64,000 bases of DNA from NCBI GenBank assembly GCA_964019135.1, contig OZ025255.1, positions 27,591,188 through 27,655,187 on the forward strand, in the 5' to 3' direction. Of the stretch, positions 26,725-63,618 are shown one piece after another. The notes under the pieces are model-generated. The model ran no database searches and was not told the DNA's origin. It saw only the letters and a program-made list of their open reading frames with translations. This DNA is from Arenicola marina (lineage: Eukaryota; Annelida; Polychaeta; Arenicolidae). Position numbers and translations under genes: made by a program. Position 1 is the first letter of the stretch; the number at the start of each line of letters is the position of its first letter.

Positions 26725-26755
26725 TCAAAACCAACCATGCCTTTTTTCCTTGCAG

Positions 26756-27076
26756 ACTGGCCCTGGAACGTTGGCGGGCAGGGACAAACCAGAGGGGTTC
26801 CAAGGCCGCTTCTGCAAAATTTGCCAGAAATCGTTCTCGTCTAGCACCAATTACAAGTACCACATGAACCTACACCTCGGGATATACCGGTATATCTGTA
26901 ACTACTGCAATAAAGGATTCTCCTCCACATCCACCTTGAAGGGACACATGAGCAAGCACACGGGCGTCAAACAGTTCCCTTGCCACATCTGCCCAAATGA
27001 GTTCTCTTACAAGTATTGCCTCGCCGAACACTTGAGGAGGATTCACGGATTGGGTGCGGACGGCAAACCCATATGA
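26756..27076 (+). CDS. U11: alternative terminal exon, three C2H2 zinc fingers
   Basis: Acceptor CTTTTTTCCTTGCAG ends at 26755; phase 0; 106 residues. Fingers at residues 20-40, 48-68 and 76-97 with linkers LGIYRYI and TGVKQFP. In finger 1 Tyr stands where the core Leu is expected (SSTNYKYH). Finger 3 helix is YKYCLAEH. The last codons (GADGKPI) and the stop lie inside a 78-bp tandem repeat. Together with U12 it forms a subgroup with KQF in the second linker. Confidence 0.92.
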   Translation, partial: TGPGTLAGRDKPEGFQGRFCKICQKSFSSSTNYKYHMNLHLGIYRYICNYCNKGFSSTSTLKGHMSKHTGVKQFPCHICPNEFSYKYCLAEHLRRIHGLGADGKPI

Positions 27077-27283
27077 CGACCTGTTACTCCTGTTTAGTCC
27101 CGCGATGTTCATGGGTGGAAGGTCGATCTGGGTGCGGACGGCAAACCCATATGACGACCTGTTACTCCTGTTTAGTCCCGCGATGTTCATGTGTGGGAGG
27201 TCGATCTGGGTGCGGACGGCAAACCCATATGACGACCTGTTACTCCTGTTTAGTCCCGCGATGTTCATGTGTGGGAGGTCGAT
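27051..27283 (+). repeat. 78-bp tandem repeat spanning the U11 stop codon, three copies
   Basis: Unit starts TGGGTGCGGACGGCAAACCC at 27051, 27129 and 27207. Copy one contains the last seven codons of U11 and its TGA; copies two and three repeat the same coding-plus-stop segment in the 3' UTR. The copies are nearly identical. Confidence 0.93.
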
Positions 27284-29463
27284 CCCGCCATGTAAACAGG
27301 GTTTGGGCTGTCTCTGCAAAACCCTTTTCCATGAAGGGTCTCTTTAAGTTTGTTTTAAGATTTTATATCCGATCAGTCCGCCCGCAGCGTACAGTGGACT
27401 TCTGGACATACCGCTTGTTAAAACGAGCTGGTCGTTGCGGTCAGACAGACAGTGCACAACAACGAAGCCGTTTGATCGCCCAATGGTCAACTTGATCTGG
27501 TCGAACACGTTATAGGAAATCGTGTCACTGTGAAATGAAGTCAGTTTGTGTTAGTTGTAACATCGCTATTGCAATAGTGAATTATCCGCGACACCTGCTT
27601 AACATGGGGCAGACTATCCGTGAGATATATATTACTCTCCTGTGACAAGGGATAAGATATCCACATCCCCTCCGTATAGGGCAGAAATATGTTACACCGG
27701 GGAGTAATAGGGCTATACAGTCTCGTTCGCCTAGCCTTCCGGTTTAATTATTTTGGGGACAAACAAACGAAGCACGTTCGGAACGAGTTTAGTATCTCTG
27801 CTCACACCGGTACCCTGGCTATCTGTGACGTAGGTGTGACGTATATGTTACGCAAAGACAGATACTGGGAACCAGACTACCTGCGCAAGAGCCAGGCGCC
27901 GAGGGGTGGGTCCATTGCGGAAGACCTAGCGATATGATTTAAAATATTTAAGAAATATATCTGCACAAAACGGTTAGACGACATATTTTTCATTCATTTG
28001 CGCCATCACAATGACGAATATTTATTACGCCGGGACAACACGGCTGAGAAACGTTTTTTGGCATTTCCTACGAAAACGAGGCATTATGACGTCACACGGA
28101 TTCCTCCCAGTGACAACGTTGGCGCAATGCTTCAAACAGAAAACTTACAAAGAATTAAGAAACTTTGTCTTTTCGTGATCCAAAAGTGATACGAAAACAT
28201 CCAACTGGTCTTATTTTACTTATACCATGTGGTTTAATGACGCATCCGTGTGTTGTTACTCCACGCACTGCACATTTTGACAGCGGAATGGTTAAGTCGA
28301 TCACTTGCTCTCGCCATGTTTGTTACCGCGGAGGCACGTGAAACTCTGCGACGTCACTCGCTGTTTATGGAACTCGCGAAAGCGCGGGTGCCGGGCTAAA
28401 TATAAAACGCTATTCTTAGTGATTTAAGACGGATTTTTTCTTGTATATTCCCAAAGTTCTGCGCTTGATCGCCTACAAATATGTTAACGTTTACCTTCCA
28501 CAGCCATGTTTAGTGAAATGGTACTCATAGGCTTTAGAATAAACCTAAAAGAAATTGGCTTATAGCCTATACTTTTAACATGGAGCACGTGTGTTTGTTT
28601 GTCCCCAAAACTGAAGTCTCGGGGCCCGATCGCGAGAACTGTATAGCCCTATAGGTGAAATAGTGGCGGATCGGTTGCATGGGAAGAACAAAAAATATAC
28701 TGGCCTCAAGGATAATAACCTGCCACTGCTGTCATAATACCTTCGCTCATCTTGACCACATGATGAATATTCACCGACTGAATGATGTGAATGGAACACA
28801 TCTATCAGGTTCAAACACCTTATTGGCTGCGCTGTCGCTGTTGATGTTAACTCATGCGACGTCTCTCTTGATATAGGCTGCAATCCTGCCACCCCAATGT
28901 CCTAATCCCCTGCTGTGTCCTGACATGGTGCTCCTTGACTGTGACCAGGGTGTGGGGCATCATTGGGTCTTTTTGTGGTTTGTTGCCGTGGGTGTTGACT
29001 GATGTCGGTGGGCGTACATCCAGTACAAAGACAAAGACTAGAGCACTTATGTATTGTGTGAACCTCGCGGTTCTGTAGTCACAATCTTCGGCAACTGTGG
29101 GCTTCTGAATGTAGAGAGGACTTCGCCAGTAGCCGTCCAAGTGGAACTAATGTAATAGGTACTTTTAGCAATTACGTTTGCTTTCTGGTGCATGTGACCC
29201 ACGAAACCTGTACTGCAGCATATGGGATATTTTCTGCGTTGACGTTGTAAAACCATATATACAGACAATAAACGTTTGGTCAAATCACTACAAACACAAC
29301 TGATTGCGATCTTATCATTTATTCCGATTACGAAGTGAACTTAGTCTCCGTAGGCGCCAAGCGTGTGTGGACTATTCTTCGCTGTAGTATTAGTGTAGTG
29401 GGCGTGGTATATGACGAGGTGACCGTCAAGTAGTTACAGTGACCGGGGGTGACACCAGGCAAT
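27284..29463. other. 3' flank of U11 and intron before U12
   Basis: No intact exon. A possible decayed zinc-finger exon lies at 28681-28876, with AATAAA at 29267-29272 after it. The rest is unique. Confidence 0.45.
28681..28876 (+). pseudogene. Possible relic of a zinc-finger terminal exon
   Basis: One frame reads TCHCCHNTFAHLDHMMNIH, which resembles finger 1 of the family with about four residues lost between the Cys pair and the His pair. It is preceded by CGGTTGCAT, close to the CGGTTGCAG acceptors of the D group but with the AG destroyed, and followed by a poly(A) signal at 29267. No intact finger 2 or 3 remains. It could equally be chance similarity. Confidence 0.3.
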
Positions 29464-29630
29464 TGACGCTTCTGGTTTCGTCGCAGACTGGTTCCCTGGT
29501 TGACAGCCACGTGGCACCTGACGCTTTTAGCTTTTTCGTTACAGACTGGTTGCCTGGTTGACAGCCACGTGGCACATGACCCTTCTGGTTTCATTACAGA
29601 CTGGTTCCCTGGTTGACAGCCACATGGGGC
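29464..29630 (+). repeat. Triplicated 3' splice site of U12 (55-58 bp units)
   Basis: Units begin at 29464, 29519 and 29577, each with a pyrimidine-rich stretch, CAG and then ACTGGTTCCCTGGTTGACAG. Candidate acceptors end at 29486, 29544 and 29599. Only the third is in frame with the zinc fingers; from the first two, translation stops at a TGA within the next unit. Confidence 0.9.
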
Positions 29631-29953: not shown

Positions 29954-30074
29954 GCGTTCACTGTGCCCAGGTGACTTTAATGCATTAGGTATGAATAGCA
30001 TCCCCGGGGATTGCGCTCGACGTCTTTGCGGTGTTAACTTGCCGTCATAGTTGTGACTGTATAGATAAATTGAA

Positions 30075-33000
30075 ACGCCTTGTAGACGGTCTGTTATCAT
30101 TGCCCCTACGGTCCCGGTCATGGCCCCTACAGAACGCCGTGCAGACGATCCCTTTCATTGCCGTACAGAACGCTTTTTCGACTGTCCGTGTCATTGCCGC
30201 TGCAGAACGCCTTGCAAAGGGTTCGTTTAATTGCCGCTGCAGAACGCCTTGCAAAGGGTTCGTTTAATTGCCGCTGCAGAACGCCTTGCAAAGGGTTCGT
30301 TTAATTGCCGCTGCAGAACGCCTTGCTAAGGGTTCGTTTAATTGCCCCTACAGAACGTCGTGTAAACAATCAGCGTAATTGCCCCTACAGAACGCCTTGT
30401 AGACGGTCCCTGTCATGGCACCTACAGAACGCCTCGTAGACGATCCCTGTCATGGCTCCTACAGAACGCCTCGTAGACGATCCCTGTCATGGCTCCTACA
30501 GAACGCCTTGTCAACGGTCCGTTTCGTTGTCCTTACAGAACGCCTTGTCAACGGTCCGTTTCATTGTCCTTACAGAACGCCTTGTCAACGGTCCGTTTCA
30601 TTGTCCTTACAGAACGCCTTGTCAATGGTCCGTTTCATTGTTCCTACAGAACGCCTTGTCAATGGTCCGTTTCATTGTCCTTACAGAACGCCTTGTCAAC
30701 GGTCCGTTTCGTTGTTCTTACAGAACGCCTTGTCAACGGTCCGTTTCATTGTTCTTACAGAACGCTTTGTCAATGGTCCGTTTCGTTGTTCTTACAGAAC
30801 GCCTTGTCAACGGTTCGTTTCATTGTCCTTACAGAACGCCTTGTCAACGGTCCGTTTCATTGTCCTTACAGAACGCCTTGTCAATGGTCCGTTTCATTGT
30901 TCTTACAGAACGCCTTGTCAATGGTCCGTTTCGTTGTTCTTACAGAACGCCTTGTCAGCGGTCCGTTTCATTGTTCTTACAGAACGCCTTGTCAACGGTC
31001 CGTTTCGTTGTTCTTACAGAACGCCTTGTCAACGGTCCGTTTCGTTGTTCTTACAGAACGCCTTGTCAACGGTCCGTTTCATTGTTCTTACAGAACGCCT
31101 TGTCAGCGGTCCGTTTCGTTGTCCTTACAGAACGCCTTGTCAGCGGTCCGTTTCAGTGTTCTTACAGAACGCCTTGTCAGCGGTCCGTTTCATTGTTCTT
31201 ACAGAACGCCTTGTCAGCGGTCCGTTTCGTTGTCCTTACAGAACGCCTTGTCAGCGGTCCGTTTCATTGTCCTTACAGAACGCCTTGTCCACGGTCCGTT
31301 TCATTGTCCTTACAGAACGCCTTGTCAATGGTCCGTTTCGTTGTCCTTACAGAACGCCTTGTCAGCGGTCCGTTTCATTGTCCTTACAGAACGCCTTGTC
31401 CACGGTCCGTTTCATTGTCCTTACAGAACGCCTTGTCAATGGTCCGTTTCGTTGTCCTTACAGAACGCCTTGTCAGCGGTCCGTTTCATTGTCCTTACAG
31501 AACGCCTTGTCCACGGTCCGTTTCATTGTCCTTACAGAACGCCTTGTCAACGGTCCGTTTCATTGTTCTTACAGAACGCCTTGTCAACGGTCCGTTTCAT
31601 TGTTCTTACAGAACGCCTTGTCAATGGTCCGTTTCATTGTTCTTACAGAACGCCTTGTCAATGGTCCGTTTCGTTGTTCTTACAGAACGCCTTGTCAATG
31701 GTCCGTTTCATTGTCCTTACAGAACGCCTTGTCAATGGTCCGTTTCATTGTTCTTACAGAACGCCTTGTCAATGGTCCGTTTCATTGTTCTTACAGAACG
31801 CCTTGTCAATGGTCCGTTTCGTTGTTCTTACAGAACGCCTTGTCAGCGGTCCGTTTCATTGTGCTTACAGAACGCCTTGTCAGCGGTCCGTTTCATTGTC
31901 CTTACAGAACGCCTTGTCAGCGGTCCGTTTCATTGTCCTTACAGAACGCCTTGTCAACGGTCCGTTTCATTGTCCTTACAGAACGCCTTGTCAGCGGTCC
32001 GTTTCATTGTCCTTACAGAACGCCTTGTCAGCGGTCCGTTTCATTGTCCTTACAGAACGCCTTGTCAACGGTCCGTTTCATTGTCCTTACAGAACGCCTT
32101 GTCAACGGTCCGTTTCATTGTTCTTACAGAACGCCTTGTCAGCGGTCCGTTTCATTGTCCTTACAGAACGCCTTGTCAACGGTCCGTTTCATTGTCCTTA
32201 CAGAACGCCTTGTCAACGGTCCGTTTCGTTGTTCTTACAGAACGCCTTGTCAGCGGTCCGTTTCGTTGTCCTTACAGAACGCCTTGTCAGCGGTCCGTTT
32301 CATTGTCCTTACAGAACGCCTTGTCAACGGTCCGTTTCATTGTCCTTACAGAACGCCTTGTCAACGGTCCGTTTCGTTGTTCTTACAGAACGCCTTGTCA
32401 GCGGTCCGTTTCGTTGTCCTTACAGAACGCCTTGTCAACGGTCCGTTTCATTGTCCTTACAGAACGCCTTGTCAACGGTCCGTTTCATTGTCCTTACAGA
32501 ACGCCTTGTCAACGGTCCGTTTCATTGTTCTTACAGAACGCCTTGTCAACGGTCCGTTTCATTGTCCTTACAGAACGCCTTGTCAACGGTCCGTTTCATT
32601 GTCCTTACAGAACGCCTTGTCAACGGTCCGTTTCATTGTTCTTACAGAACGCTTTGTCAGCGGTCCGTTTCATTGTCCTTACAGAACGCCTTGTCAATGG
32701 TCCGTTTCGTTGTTCTTACAGAACGCCTTGTCAGCGGTCCGTTTCATTGTCCTTACAGAACGCCTTGTCAATGGTCCGTTTCGTTGTTCTTACAGAACGC
32801 CTTGTCAGCGGTCCGTTTCATTGTCCTTACAGAACGCCTTGTCAACGGTCCGTTTCATTGTCCTTACAGAACGCCTTGTCAACGGTCCGTTTCGTTGTTC
32901 TTACAGAACGCCTTGTCAGCGGTCCGTTTCATTGTCCTTACAGAACGCCTTGTCAACGGTCCGTTTCATTGTCCTTACAGAACGCCTTGTCAGCGGTCCG

Positions 33001-34026
33001 TTTCATTGTCCTTACAGAACGCCTTGTCAACGGTCCGTTTCGTTGTTCTTACAGAACGCCTTGTCAGCGGTCCGTTTCATTGTCCTTACAGAACGCCTTG
33101 TCAGCGGTCCGTTTCATTGTCCTTACAGAACGCCTTGTCAACGGTCCGTTTCATTGTCCTTACAGAACGCCTTGTCAACGGTCCGTTTCGTTGTTCTTAC
33201 AGAACGCCTTGTCAGCGGTCCCTTTCATTGTCCTTACAGAACGCTTTGTCAGCAGTCCGTTTCATTGTTCTTACAGAACGCCTTGTCAATGGTCCGTTTC
33301 GTTGTTCTTACAGAACGCCTTGTCAACGGTCCGTTTCATTGTCCTTACAGAACGCCTTGTCAACGGTCCGTTTCATTGTTTTTACAGAACGCCTTGTCAA
33401 CGGTCCGTTTCATTGTCCTTACAGAACGCCTTGTCAACGGTCCGTTTCATTGTCCTTACAGAACGCCTTGTCAACGGTCCGTTTCGTTGTTCTTACAGAA
33501 CGCCTTGTCAATGGTCCGTTTCATTGTTCTTACAGAACGCCTTGTCAACGGTCCGTTTCATTGTTCTTACAGAACGCCTTGTCAACGGTCCGTTTCATTG
33601 TTCTTACAGAACGCCTTGTCAACGGTCCGTTTCATTGTCCTTACAGAACGCCTTGTCAACGGTCCGTTTCATTGTTCTTACAGAACGCCTTGTCAACGGT
33701 CCGTTTCATTGTTCTTACAGAACGCCTTGTCAACGGTCCGTTTCATTGTTCTTACAGAACGCCTTGTCAACGGTCCGTTTCGTTGTTCTTACAGAACGCC
33801 TTGTCAACGGTCCGTTTCATTGTTCTTACAGAACGCCTTGTCAACGGTCCGTTTCATTGTTCTTACAGAACGCCTTGTCAACGGTCCGTTTCATTGTTCT
33901 TACAGAACGCCTTGTCAACGGTCCGTTTCATTGTCCTTACAGAACGCCTTGTCCACGGTCCGTTTCATTGTTCTTACAGAACGCCTTGTCAACGGTCCGT
34001 TTCATTGTTCTTACAGAACGCCTTGA
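30075..34026 (+). repeat. 37-bp minisatellite of amplified U13 splice acceptors, over 100 copies
   Basis: Unit CTTACAGAACGCCTTGTCAA followed by CGGTCCGTTTCATTGTT. Read across units, each contains TTTCATTGTTCTTACAG/AACGCC, a good polypyrimidine tract and AG. The last copy (AG at 34015-34016) is the acceptor of U13. The left 10 units (30075-30450) are diverged, the rest differ at a few positions (CAT/CGT, AAC/AGC/AAT, CTT/TCT). The unit contains no TAA, TAG or TGA in any frame, so all three + frames are open for about 3.6 kb. Three units make 111 bp, so every third acceptor is in frame with the U13 fingers. Confidence 0.95.
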
Positions 34027-34394
34027 GCCGCGGACGAGGACCGCTGGACGCCCAGGGGTCTGAGTGGGCAGAGTCACCTGCCCAGGCCGGCAATCAGCCG
34101 GGAGCGCAGGCGCAGGCGCAGGCGCAGTCGCACGTTTGTCCGTACTGTCAGCGGACGTTCACATGCGGCCACAGCCTGAAGCAGCACGTGAACCTACACC
34201 GCGGCATCTACAAGTACAAGTGTCCCTACTGCGGCAAGGGGTGTTCCTCAACGGCCGGGCTGGAAGGTCACGTGGCCAAACACACCGGCGTCAAGGCCTT
34301 TACTTGCCACGTGTGCGGCAGAGGTTTTGCCTATAAACAGACGCTGGTCGACCACATGAGGATGACTCATGGCACTGCTGCCCCTGCCAAATAG
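34017..34394 (+). CDS. U13: alternative terminal exon, three zinc fingers, behind an acceptor array
   Basis: The shortest form starts at the last acceptor (TTGTTCTTACAG ending at 34016), phase 0, 125 residues. The same frame stays open upstream to 30489, so use of any third-unit acceptor would add multiples of 37 residues. The 40-residue lead has a short QA repeat. Fingers at residues 41-61, 69-89 and 97-118, linkers RGIYKYK and TGVKAFT. In the middle finger the core Phe is replaced by Cys (GKGCSST), rare in this set. The C-terminal codons and stop lie in a 99-bp repeat. Poly(A) signal AATAAA at 35125-35130. Confidence 0.9.
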   Translation, partial: NALSRGRGPLDAQGSEWAESPAQAGNQPGAQAQAQAQSHVCPYCQRTFTCGHSLKQHVNLHRGIYKYKCPYCGKGCSSTAGLEGHVAKHTGVKAFTCHVCGRGFAYKQTLVDHMRMTHGTAAPAK

Positions 34395-34770
34395 ACATCC
34401 TCTATTCGATAGACCTAGCAAAGTGGACTTGTTTGTGGTGCATGTATTCACCACATGAGAATGACCCATGGCACTGCTGCCCCTGTCAAATAGACATCCT
34501 CTATTCGATAGACCTAGCGAAATGGACTTGTTTGTGGTGCATGTATTCACCACATGAGAATGACCCATGGCACTGCTGCCCCTGTCAAATAGACATCCTC
34601 TATTCGATAGACCTAGCGAAGTGGACTTGTTTGTGGTGCATGTATTCACCACATGAGAATGACCCATGGCACTGCTGCCCTTGCCAAATAGACATCCTCT
34701 ATTCGATAGACCTAGCAAAGTGGACATATTTGTGGTGCATGTATTCACCACATGAGGATGATGACACATG
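34355..34770 (+). repeat. 99-bp tandem repeat spanning the U13 stop codon, about four copies
   Basis: The segment from the last His pair of finger 3 through the stop (GGCACTGCTGCCCCTGCCAA, then ATAGACATCC) recurs every 99 bases (GACATCC at 34394, 34493, 34592 and 34691) in the 3' UTR. The copies remain over 95% alike by eye. Confidence 0.92.
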
Positions 34771-35282
34771 AGGGTCTGCATAATTTCGTATTGACGAGAT
34801 TAACATACAAGTAAAGAGATACTTTAGGCACACCGTATCAACCATCTTCTCGCCATCATCATCGTTTTTAAAGAGAAAGCTGAAAAAGCTGATCATCACC
34901 TTTAACGAAGTCATACGCGCCACGAACGAGGTGCTGCTGTCAAACCCCGTATTGTTTCCGTCGCAAAGACAGTAGATATCTCAACAACTGATTTTGTGGC
35001 ATTGCAATTTGTATCAGAATGAGACTTTCTGACTGTCTGGCTTTTACAGTTTTTCTCGTCCAGTTTTTGGTTAGTACCGATCGTCTTGCGCTGCATGTTC
35101 TTACCTGGACTGTGTGTATGTGTAAATAAATGGCTTGAATCATATGTCGTCACTGCCTGTTTCATTTTGTTGGCAACCGGGCAATAGACATCGTATTTTG
35201 GCGTGTGTTCGAGCTTCGTCTTTTGCATTGTATCCGTCTTCTATGGTCTGTGGTACTTTTCATGCACAAATATCAGGTCATA
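34771..35282. other. 3' flank of U13
   Basis: Contains AATAAA at 35125-35130. No gene seen. Confidence 0.5.
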
Positions 35283-36845: not shown

Positions 36846-37157
36846 GGCAATATGGCGACCACTATGAGACGCCAGGGAGGAGCCATGGGGTCAACCAGGT
36901 TTCCGTGTCCCAGGTGTCCCCGAATGCTAGCTAACGCTGGAACGCTGAAATGGCACTTGAAGTTACACGACGGGATATACCGCTACCACTGCCAGGAATG
37001 TGGCAAAGGGTTCTCCTCCACGGATGGATTGAGGGGGCATATGTTTAAGCACGCCGCTGGACGCCATTTCTGCGCTATTTGTAACAAGGCGTTCGCCTAT
37101 AAGGCGTTGGTAGACGCCCATTTGAGAGCAGTCCATGGAGCAGACATTCCACCATAA
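36846..37157 (+). CDS. U14: alternative terminal exon, three zinc fingers, divergent
   Basis: Acceptor TCCTTCTGCTTGCAG ends at 36845; phase 0; 103 residues. Fingers at residues 21-41, 49-69 and 76-97. Finger 1 has Leu instead of the core Phe (CPRMLANAGTLKWH). The linker between fingers 2 and 3 is AAGRHF, one residue shorter than the TGVKEFx of the others and without its conserved Thr-Gly. Zinc ligands are complete. The most diverged of the U exons after U3/U4. Poly(A) signal AATAAA at 37744-37749. Confidence 0.9.
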   Translation, partial: GNMATTMRRQGGAMGSTRFPCPRCPRMLANAGTLKWHLKLHDGIYRYHCQECGKGFSSTDGLRGHMFKHAAGRHFCAICNKAFAYKALVDAHLRAVHGADIPP

Positions 37158-38795: not shown

Positions 38796-39310
38796 TCTGC
38801 CAGCGGTCGGCATGGCTACTCGCAATGACTGCCGGCGGTCGGCATGGCTACCCGCAATGTCTGCCGGCGGTCGGCATGGCTACCCGCAATGTCTGGCGGC
38901 GGTCGGTATGGCTACTCGCAATGACTGCCGGCGGTCGGCATGGCTACCCGCAATGTCTGGCGGCGGTCGGCATGGCTACCCGCAATGTCTGGCGGCGGTC
39001 GGCATGGCTACTCGCAATGACTGCCGGCGGTCGGCATGGCTACTCGCAATGTCTGACGGCGGCCGGCATGGCTGCCCGCAATGTCTGGCGGCGGTCGGCA
39101 TGACTACTCGCAATGTCTGGCGGCGGTCGGCATGGCTACTCGCAATGACTGCCGGCGGTCAGGATGGCTACCCGCAATGACTGCCGGCGGTCGGCATGAC
39201 TACTCGCAATGCTGCCTGCGGTCGGCATGGCTACCCGCAATGTCTGGTGCGGTCGGCATGGCTACTCGCAATTACTGCCGGCGGTCGGCATGGCTACCCG
39301 CAATGACTCT
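38796..39310. repeat. 32-bp minisatellite abutting U15, about 16 copies
   Basis: Unit CGGCGGTCGGCATGGCTACT plus CGCAATGACTGC. Ends within about 20 bases of the U15 polypyrimidine tract. Unlike the arrays before U11 and U13 its unit does not look like a splice acceptor. Confidence 0.93.
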
Positions 39311-49534: not shown

Positions 49535-50425
49535 ATGGTTATCAAAGGTGACCAACTGCGCATCCAAACACTGATCAAGGACACGCTGACCTTGCTGTGT
49601 AAGAATGGCCTCAACTTCGAGTCCCAGTTTTGTATGGAGGCTCTGATCGTGTTCACCTTGGACAACGAGGATGTCTTCCACGTGTCCATCAACGAGACCG
49701 TCAAGAACGCGCTGGCGGCCGCGCAGACAGACAAAAGTGCCGAGGCGCCCCCTGACGACGAGGACGAGTACGAGGACAACCTGGCGGATTGCCGGAACAC
49801 GGGGCCATCCGAGCGGAGGACTCCCGGGGGTTATCAGAGGCGGGGCAGCCCTGGTGGGGGTGGGAGCAAGCGGCGGCGGTCGTCGAATGTCCTGCCCAAG
49901 GCGGAGCCGGGGCTAGATGACGACCGGGCAGAACAGAGTCAGTATCTCGATGACCCCGACCCCAATCTGAATCAAGGTCAGGGACAAATTCACGCCGCCC
50001 CGGGTGAAGACTCTAACTCGTACTCTGTGACCTCGACGGACGAGCCCCCGAACAAGCGTCACCAAGGCGCCGCGCTGTCCGACTCCATGGCCTCCCACTC
50101 CGTGGCGGACGACGAGGACGACTTGAAGGACATCATCGTGATCAAAGAGGAGTTTGAGGACGGTAGTTGGGAGTCGCCCGGCGGCGAGGGGGACAGTTCG
50201 GGCCTGCCCCCCGAGGCCTCATACGGCGGTGGCCACTCCGGGGGGCTCCAGCCACCCTACGGAGACGTGGACTTAGCGCGGGCCCTGGGCTCCCCGACGA
50301 TGGGGCCCGGCCCCTCTCAAGGCCCGCCCGGCAATATGTGGACCCCTAACCAGTCTCAGCTGCAGGCGCAGGCTCTGTCCAGATCAGCCACAGTCACGGC
50401 AGCCTCAGACGGGGTCACGAACCAG
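49535..50425 (+). CDS. C: shared 5' coding exon, novel N-terminal domain and NLS
   Basis: Acceptor TTTTATTTACAG ends at 49526; the ATG at 49535 sits in an excellent context (CACCATGG). The reading frame runs 297 codons to the donor AACCAG/GTGAGT at 50425/50426, exactly phase 0, matching all nine downstream finger exons. Residues 1-65 (starting MVIKGDQLRIQTLIKDTL) look like a compact alpha/beta domain (a helix, then strands around LDNEDVFHVSI). I do not recognise it as BTB/POZ, KRAB, SCAN or ZAD. Residues about 70-85 are acidic, KRRR at 112-115 is a likely nuclear localisation signal, IKEE at 203-206 fits a SUMO consensus; the rest is low-complexity Gly/Pro/Ser/Gln. Probable role: dimerisation or cofactor binding for a family of DNA-binding isoforms. 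If the donor is not used, the frame runs on to a stop at 50683, giving a finger-less protein. Confidence 0.85.
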
Positions 50426-62262: not shown

Positions 62263-63300
62263 TGAAACTATGGCTTCCCAATCTGGAGATTGATTATTTC
62301 ACATGTCATTCATAGTGCCGAAATTGGCTGAGGCCGGTTTAACCCATGTTTAGCGCACGAAATCGGCTTAAAAGATGTTCACTCCCATGAAAACACGGTG
62401 GATTGGGTTGCATCGTCCGTCCATAGGCGGGGTGCGGGCGGGGTGCCGGTGCCGTTGGGGTGCCGTCGGCGTGCCGGCGTGGTCAAGGAGCGGCCAAAAC
62501 GACTGCCGTCAACAGGTTGAGGGTTAAAAGTGCACCTGTCTGTGGTAGTCTCATCCTTAGTTTCATCTCACCGTCTTCGCCCAACGCATGCCATATTGTG
62601 CAGAGTTTAAAACACCAGCCATCCATCCGTCCTGTGAATAGACGTCTAGTTTTTTTGTAATAAGTAGTTTGGCAACCGTGGTGGAACGACACGACATCTT
62701 CGTTTAGGACCTGGGGGTAGTGCCGAAATCAACCCAGAACAAACCCCACATGATACAGATATAGTAGGATACTGATAGGCCTGGTGTCTCCCGTAGCATA
62801 CCATCACCATGGTGCCCACGCGGGGACGGCCGATGGGGGTGTTGGGGGGCAAGAGGGGAGTGGGGGGGGGGTGCATTCACCATCGACCGATGATGCCTTA
62901 TTCTCGGAGTGTTCTGGGTGACGTTGCCTTGTTGATAAGCCACATAATTCCCTGGGCGCCAGCACTCCATATCTCTCGATAGACCTAGAAAACTACGTCC
63001 GTCCGATGGATTCCACCTGGAAGATACCTTGTCGTGGTTGACAGTCGCCTTTTGACAAAAAGAATTAAACAGATTAAAAGTATTTGTCTGTTCTTGTTTT
63101 GAAAATCCTGACGTCATTGATGTCACATCTAAGCGCCAAGTACTGAGCCAATGGAACCCTTATTTGTTCAATGTTCTTGTGGAATGACAACCGGCAGCAT
63201 CTGTGAACATCTCTCCACCTTTTTCTTTGATATATAGCTGCTCTCGGAACGCTTTCTATACGAGTTTGATAACCTCTGTCTCCGTTTGTGTTGGTTACAG
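62263..63300. other. 3' flank of D8 and intron before D9
   Basis: A GC-rich patch at 62428-62485 with repeated GGGGTGCCG. No exon recognised. Confidence 0.45.
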
Positions 63301-63618
63301 CCTGCGGGGCTGGCCGTCGCGGAGTCGAGTGGGGCGCACAGCGGTCACGACGAGGGCTCTCTCATATGTTGCGACCTGTGCGAGAAGACGTTCAGAACGA
63401 TGGCGGGCATGCAGATCCACAGAAACCTGCACTTCGGTATCTACAAATACCACTGCGAGCAGTGCAGCATGGGGTTCTCGTCCACTACGGCACTGAGGGG
63501 CCACATGTCCAAGCATACGGGCATCAAGGAGTTCACATGTCCGATGTGCGGTCGCCAATACCGCTTTAAAGGCGACATGAGGACACACATGAAGGCCTGT
63601 TCGCTCCGGAATACCTGA
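63301..63618 (+). CDS. D9: alternative terminal exon, two C2H2 fingers plus a C2HC third finger
   Basis: Acceptor TTTGTGTTGGTTACAG ends at 63300; phase 0; 105 residues. Fingers at residues 24-44, 52-72 and 80-100. Finger 3 ends HMKAC then SLRNT, so again a Cys replaces the last His. Linkers FGIYKYH and TGIKEFT. Sister of D8 (same acceptor, same PAxL start, KGDMRxH helix). Further D exons may follow beyond the window. Confidence 0.9.
   Translation, partial: PAGLAVAESSGAHSGHDEGSLICCDLCEKTFRTMAGMQIHRNLHFGIYKYHCEQCSMGFSSTTALRGHMSKHTGIKEFTCPMCGRQYRFKGDMRTHMKACSLRNT

Follow-up and report, generated by a model that had tools for sequence, protein, structure and literature searches.

A minisatellite of acceptor-grade splice sites in front of a C2H2 terminal exon of Arenicola marina

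What becomes of a gene when one of its splice acceptors has been copied about a hundred times? The question is raised by a 37-bp tandem repeat that lies directly before a predicted terminal exon, U13, in the window analysed here (a stretch of 64,000 nucleotides of Arenicola marina, whose coordinates are used throughout, negative numbers lying before its first letter). An earlier note on this DNA had claimed that an acceptor was amplified about a hundred times and that the last copy of the array was the acceptor of U13, and had named tuning of U13 use, a splicing sponge and length-variable proteins as possible consequences. A count of the motif CAG/AACG bears out the amplification: it occurs in 106 copies, with exon starts running from 30133 to 34017 and no unit skipped, and the last of these copies is indeed where U13 begins.

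The sequence examined comprises 274 kb (the 64-kb window and 21 adjoining 10-kb stretches) and holds 200 N. Three neighbouring genes, A, B and C, one on the minus strand and two on the plus strand, are located at window coordinates -45162 to 77064. Each consists of one common 5' coding exon followed on its own strand by alternative terminal exons encoding C2H2 fingers. The common exons start with MV(V/I)KGDQ, contain LLCKNGL and end in phase 0 (Table 1). Terminal exons were counted when they held at least two C2H2 motifs, and their phase-0 acceptors were picked by score; a total of 50 was found (20 in gene A, 16 in gene B and 14 in gene C), all 50 in phase 0 by selection. The stop codon of U13 occupies 34392-34394, and the later terminal exons of gene B, U14-U16, begin at 36846, 39332 and 41761. 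The second finger of U13 reads KGCSS, compared by eye with KGFSS in most sibling exons, and its zinc ligands are intact.

The gene model and the type of acceptor are supported by P0001, the protein of a public contig of 1330 bases, which says nothing about the use of U13. In P0001 the gene A common exon is joined without a break to the terminal exon at -23117, with 319 of 340 aligned positions identical and the junction acceptor TTACAG/ACTGG. Because these two exons stand about 10 kb apart in this genome, we infer that P0001 reflects splicing in a close relative of gene A. A Pfam scan of the common-exon reading frame of gene C, the only gene scanned, returned no family at E 0.1 and no BTB domain. 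Over 151 consecutive bases the common exons of B (-975 to -825) and C (49572-49722) match without a single difference, the remainder having diverged, suggesting a recent gene conversion. The gene C terminal exons at 71070 and 72953 have their first two fingers in common and differ in the third, as they might after partial duplication or conversion.

Table 1. Features of the U13 locus and of the three common exons, in window coordinates.
Feature	Coordinates	Strand	Remarks
Common 5' exon, gene A	-12454 to -13230	-	
Common 5' exon, gene B	-1012 to -248	+	upstream of window; donor TTG/GTAAGT, phase 0
Short array at U12	29464..29627	+	acceptors 29487, 29545, 29600 (scores 15.5, 15.8, 17.6)
Decayed 5' edge of array	30074..30129	+	unit-like, without CAG at junction positions; sequence read by eye
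Diverged 5' units	30130..30501	+	acceptors 1-10 (30133-30465) and intron end of acceptor 11 (30502)
Second open frame through array	30415..34026	+	repeat-only end
Third open frame through array	30452..34063	+	ends 46 bases past first base of U13
Open reading frame through array in frame with fingers	30489..34394	+	1301 aa from first ATG
Homogeneous part of array	30502..34016	+	units 12-106, each with CAG/AACG at its end
Terminal exon U13	34017..34394	+	13th of 16 in gene B; 125 residues, three C2H2 fingers
99-bp x 4.2 array	34351..34761	+	over last codons and stop of U13 and 3' flank
First AATAAA past U13	35125..35130	+	likely polyadenylation signal
Common 5' exon, gene C	49535..50425	+	donor CAG/GTGAGT, phase 0

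The array is a minisatellite in the usual sense of head-to-tail units of about 10-100 bp with high identity; TRF places it at 30128-34025, with a period of 37, 105.4 copies and 94% matches. Neighbouring copies are spaced 37 bases apart in 104 of 105 cases and 36 bases in the remaining one. The earlier note had begun the array at 30075, a start that has to be moved, since the sequence from about 30074 to 30129 carries CAG at neither junction position and the first acceptor is at 30133. Of the 37 bases in the unit, 28 come from the intron end and 9 from the start of U13; these nine, AACGCCTTG, are thus common to the exon and the repeat unit. The unit ending TTGTTCTTACAG, which had been described as the unit of the array, is U13's own type and occurs in 42 copies, but the type ending TTGTCCTTACAG is commoner, with 49. 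A 22-base word of the repeat, TTACAGAACGCCTTGTCAACGG, occurs in exact form at 47 places in the assembly (867 Mb, 762 contigs), every one inside the array. The full-length U13 exon occurs once in the single assembly examined, and the array with U13 was accordingly rejected as a haplotype copy.

The units are not equally alike. Mean divergence from the consensus is 3.6% in units 12-106 and 24.6% in units 3-11, and the units identical to unit 106 are concentrated beside the exon (8 of the 12 nearest before it vs 7 of 82 further upstream; Fisher P = 2e-5), which is what recent local turnover would give. CAG and AACG are without a mismatch across 104 aligned units, including the diverged units 3-11 (hypergeometric P = 0.0003, a value to be read with the shared ancestry of the copies, with the choice of the seven columns in knowledge of the junction and with the use of the motif to set the array edges).

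How good are these copies as acceptors? The acceptors of 49 sibling terminal exons served to build a position model, each sibling being scored leave-one-out, with one site changed by hand from 63238 to 63301. On this scale, which leans to tract-rich sites and has phase 0 partly built in because the siblings were picked in phase 0 by a polypyrimidine score, the array median is 13.8, the same as the score of 34017 itself, and the sibling median is 16.4. The siblings' 10th percentile, 7.9, is reached by 100 of the 106 array copies, as against 153 of 21,256 background AGs (0.7%), and the siblings' median by 24 of the 106. An intron-only model built from 46 siblings, three doubtful ones being dropped, gives much the same result: the 10th percentile is reached by 101 of 106 copies and by 95 of 95 in units 12-106, and dropping the three doubtful siblings alters the outcome little. 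Nearly every array copy is thus shown to carry an acceptor of sibling-exon grade, in agreement with what had been claimed of it.

The intron ends in TTACAG in 94 of the 106 copies, as in U13, and in 9 of the 49 siblings. Hexamers of this kind are argued, in PMC12480690, to explain many splice-site choices; if so, the array copies that share TTACAG would be about equal. The putative branch point of the array units appears weak. At -25, TCAAC or TCAAT is found in 65 of 106 copies and TCAGC in 26, and the best YTNAY match, at -41, lies inside the preceding acceptor in 93 of 106. The siblings are a poor yardstick for branch points, because only 26 of 49 have YTNAY between -15 and -45.

Within 30040-34060 the best donor-like score is -0.4, compared with 5.2, 8.3 and 1.3 for the donors of the gene B, gene C and gene A common exons, so that no good donor is present; donor sites or mini-introns inside the unit were ruled out on the same grounds, -0.4 lying below the 1.3 of gene A's real donor. 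Recursive splicing through zero-length exons was likewise ruled out, since all 106 copies read CAG/AACG and no AG/GT donor is regenerated. Neither AATAAA nor ATTAAA is found in 30000-35124. Without a good donor or either of these signals in the array, a copy that is used would form the 5'-extended start of a single terminal exon. A 300-nt piece of the array folds with a z of -4.5 against plain shuffles. When shuffled units are tiled alike, z is -1.9 for the T-type (10 of 300 as low), 0.1 for the C-type and 0.5 for the G-type, and the array AGs, with a median of 0.41 unpaired vs 0.29 in the siblings, are no more hidden. A special RNA structure of the array was rejected, as little of the signal is left in the tiled-shuffle controls and predicted folding does not hide the acceptors.

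Phase-0 translation from the 106 acceptors puts 32 in frame with the fingers and leads 32 to an end at 34026 and 32 to an end at 34063; the other 10, numbers 1-10, stop inside the array and give 3-44 residues. The predicted in-frame products have 125 + 37n residues, with a maximum of 1272. The frame rotation proposed earlier, with one third of acceptors in frame, steps of 37 residues and the other ends at 34026 or 34063, is exact for acceptors 11-106. Openness in three frames, claimed for the whole array, holds from 30477 onward, where the first acceptor within is number 11 at 30502, and fails for acceptors 1-10. As a sign of function this openness does not stand, being seen in 37% of dinucleotide-shuffled units, in 18% of mononucleotide-shuffled units and, on one strand or both, in 13 of the 34 other local arrays that have at least 4 copies and a unit length not divisible by three. 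It is ordinary and not above chance.

Tests for coding selection on the array, by lag preference and by stop avoidance, were negative. Units 12-106 hold 13 distinct variants, none of which makes a stop; about 1.2 stop-making variants would be expected from the 2/37 transitions and 14/74 transversions that make stops, and the difference is not significant. Exact matches between units have a frequency of 0.114 at lags divisible by three and 0.120 at others. Taken singly, lag 3 stands highest (0.27), followed by lag 4 (0.21), and the two longest exact blocks, of 5 and 4 units, belong to lags 3 and 4 respectively. A frame-preserving expansion was rejected, as three-unit multiples are not commoner overall. 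The protein collection yielded 9 matches at E 1e-8, none from gene B, and among 151 candidates at E 1e-5 no relative of U13 or of the repeat; these searches thus turned up no transcript of gene B. In Pfam the repeat frame matched DUF4940, zf-POGZ and YwqJ-deaminase, which were taken as repetition artefacts, since no stretch passes alone.

The surroundings of the array are themselves rich in repeats. Of 274,000 bases, 82,170 (30%) belong to tandem arrays, in 113 merged loci, and arrays cover 17.9% of the span of the terminal exons. Only 2 of the 50 acceptors lie inside arrays, where 5000 circular shifts give a mean of 9.0 (P = 0.003). Acceptors are thus kept free of arrays in this locus, with U12 and U13 as the two exceptions. 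Among the 84 arrays with a length of at least 60 bases and a period of at least 14, three carry an acceptor-grade site in the consensus, two of them being those of U12 and U13. U12 shows the same border-repeating process at three copies: its border is repeated three times, with a unit unrelated to the 37-bp unit, and neither of the two upstream acceptors is in frame, translation from them reaching a stop after 24 and 23 residues.

Other arrays approach the terminal exons without entering their acceptors. A 30 bp x 27 array ends at 26726, 30 bases before the U11 acceptor at 26756, and a 32 bp x 16 array ends at 39305, 27 bases before the acceptor of U15, as if growth halts at the branch-point region. 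The array at 27051-27284 covers the 3' end of U11 including the stop codon, as the 99-bp array does for U13. Outside the window, a segmental duplication (90688-121103 and 128453-160775) holds a series of arrays twice in the same order, with periods of 62, 37, 108, 14, 14, 45, 19, 92, 43 and 61 and differing copy numbers. Related finger loci at C8:26.48 and 29.12 Mb (3 kb each) both contain tandem repeats.

These observations are probably best explained by a minisatellite, driven by mutation, that took in an intron/exon border and left redundant acceptors, two thirds of them unproductive, which are tolerated. A 37-bp stretch over the U13 border, the span of which is observed, would have been tandemly duplicated, and the duplicated border would then have expanded by the ordinary minisatellite turnover of a locus whose load of arrays is itself observed. 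The common exon of gene B, with its phase-0 donor, would have about 95 near-equivalent copies open to it for splicing. Several of these may be used, each acting, as far as its sequence indicates, only as an alternative start of one terminal exon. By translation, one third of the joins would keep the fingers, adding 37 residues per three units as a repeat stretch between the common part and the fingers, and the other two thirds would give repeat-only ends. What results is most likely redundancy, with productive U13 output reduced, and not a control device that evolved; such a loss could be tolerated because fifteen other terminal exons exist. The distribution of arrays over the locus fits mutation-driven growth limited by junction selection better than recruitment for regulation. 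Against the captured-border explanation, the absence of core mismatches looks as if selection kept the acceptors, the array median is below that of the siblings, and the putative branch point seems weak.

It may also be that the array is an inert passenger, in which splicing uses just 34017, or a few copies at the edge, and the remainder is plain intron, the branch point, flanking enhancers or exon definition favouring the copy beside real exon sequence. The weak and variable branch-point motif within the unit agrees with this, as does the fact that U13's own exon sequence follows the last copy only. However, the last six intron bases of most copies match those of 34017, units 12-106 do not differ in grade, no measured local feature marks 34017 out, and the other copies are transcribed before it. 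We regard the inert array as rather unlikely, while giving it appreciable weight. An acceptor trap, in which copy number sets whether gene B transcripts end in U13 or in U14-U16 and the array serves as a length-polymorphic regulator, would make sense of about a hundred acceptor-grade sites in an array that lacks a good donor and is followed by an AATAAA at 35125, and of a CAG/AACG core that is never lost. Two thirds of the entries would be unproductive, however, and arrays here generally avoid acceptors, which suggests that such insertions are harmful; the trap is improbable. It is just as doubtful that the trap works as a dial, copy number setting the share of U13 and frame rotation fixing the output of fingers at about one third of the captured transcripts. 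If the dial were true, a mutable minisatellite would control the choice of a transcription-factor isoform.

Length-variable proteins, made by splicing to in-frame copies and with a function for the 37-residue repeats they contain, are the least credible of these possibilities and in our view very improbable. All three frames are open from 30477 and 32 acceptors are in frame, but such openness is ordinary both for the composition of the unit and for nearby arrays, three-unit steps are not preferred overall, stop avoidance is not significant, and none of the 151 candidate proteins is related at E 1e-5. Along the array, moreover, each base falls at every codon position in turn, which leaves no single peptide selectable.

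The locus offers a natural experiment on acceptor choice, with about 95 near-identical acceptors after one donor that differ almost only in position, and the reading frame of the join would label the class of copy used. It also shows how a splice junction can be engulfed by a growing minisatellite, U12 presenting a stage with three copies. No minisatellite of acceptors was found among the literature matches listed, which cover few subscription papers and are weak evidence of absence.

In lola of Drosophila, a shared 5' part is spliced to any one of a large set of alternative 3' exons. We know of no acceptor array in mod(mdg4) or lola. The same organization is described for mod(mdg4) of Drosophila in PMC12692577. 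A common exon with many terminal exons is likewise predicted for gene B, and one such join is seen in the relative of gene A. Unlike in mod(mdg4) and lola, no BTB domain was found in the common exon of gene C, the only one scanned, so the locus is not assigned to that type, and trans-splicing is unneeded, because the terminal exons follow the common exon on its own strand. According to PMC2812944, variable tandem repeats placed where exons meet introns in duplicated human genes alter splicing and protein length; their units average 30 bp, an array averages 4 units and 160 bp, and they have transcript support. The present array resembles those repeats in being a minisatellite at an exon/intron border with a unit of similar size (37 vs 30 bp), and differs from them in having about 106 units instead of 4 and in being known from genome sequence alone. 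The formation of a new intron needs both splice sites, and the 37-bp unit is without a good donor. The closest known kind is a minisatellite that supplies several splice sites: in the human 6-16 minisatellite, which is reportedly short, many units are said to do so, the sites being donors. Here as in 6-16, minisatellite units carry a splice-site consensus of real-site grade (100 of 106 copies); unlike the 6-16 donors, those of Arenicola marina are about a hundred putative acceptors, placed before a terminal exon in a unit not divisible by three.
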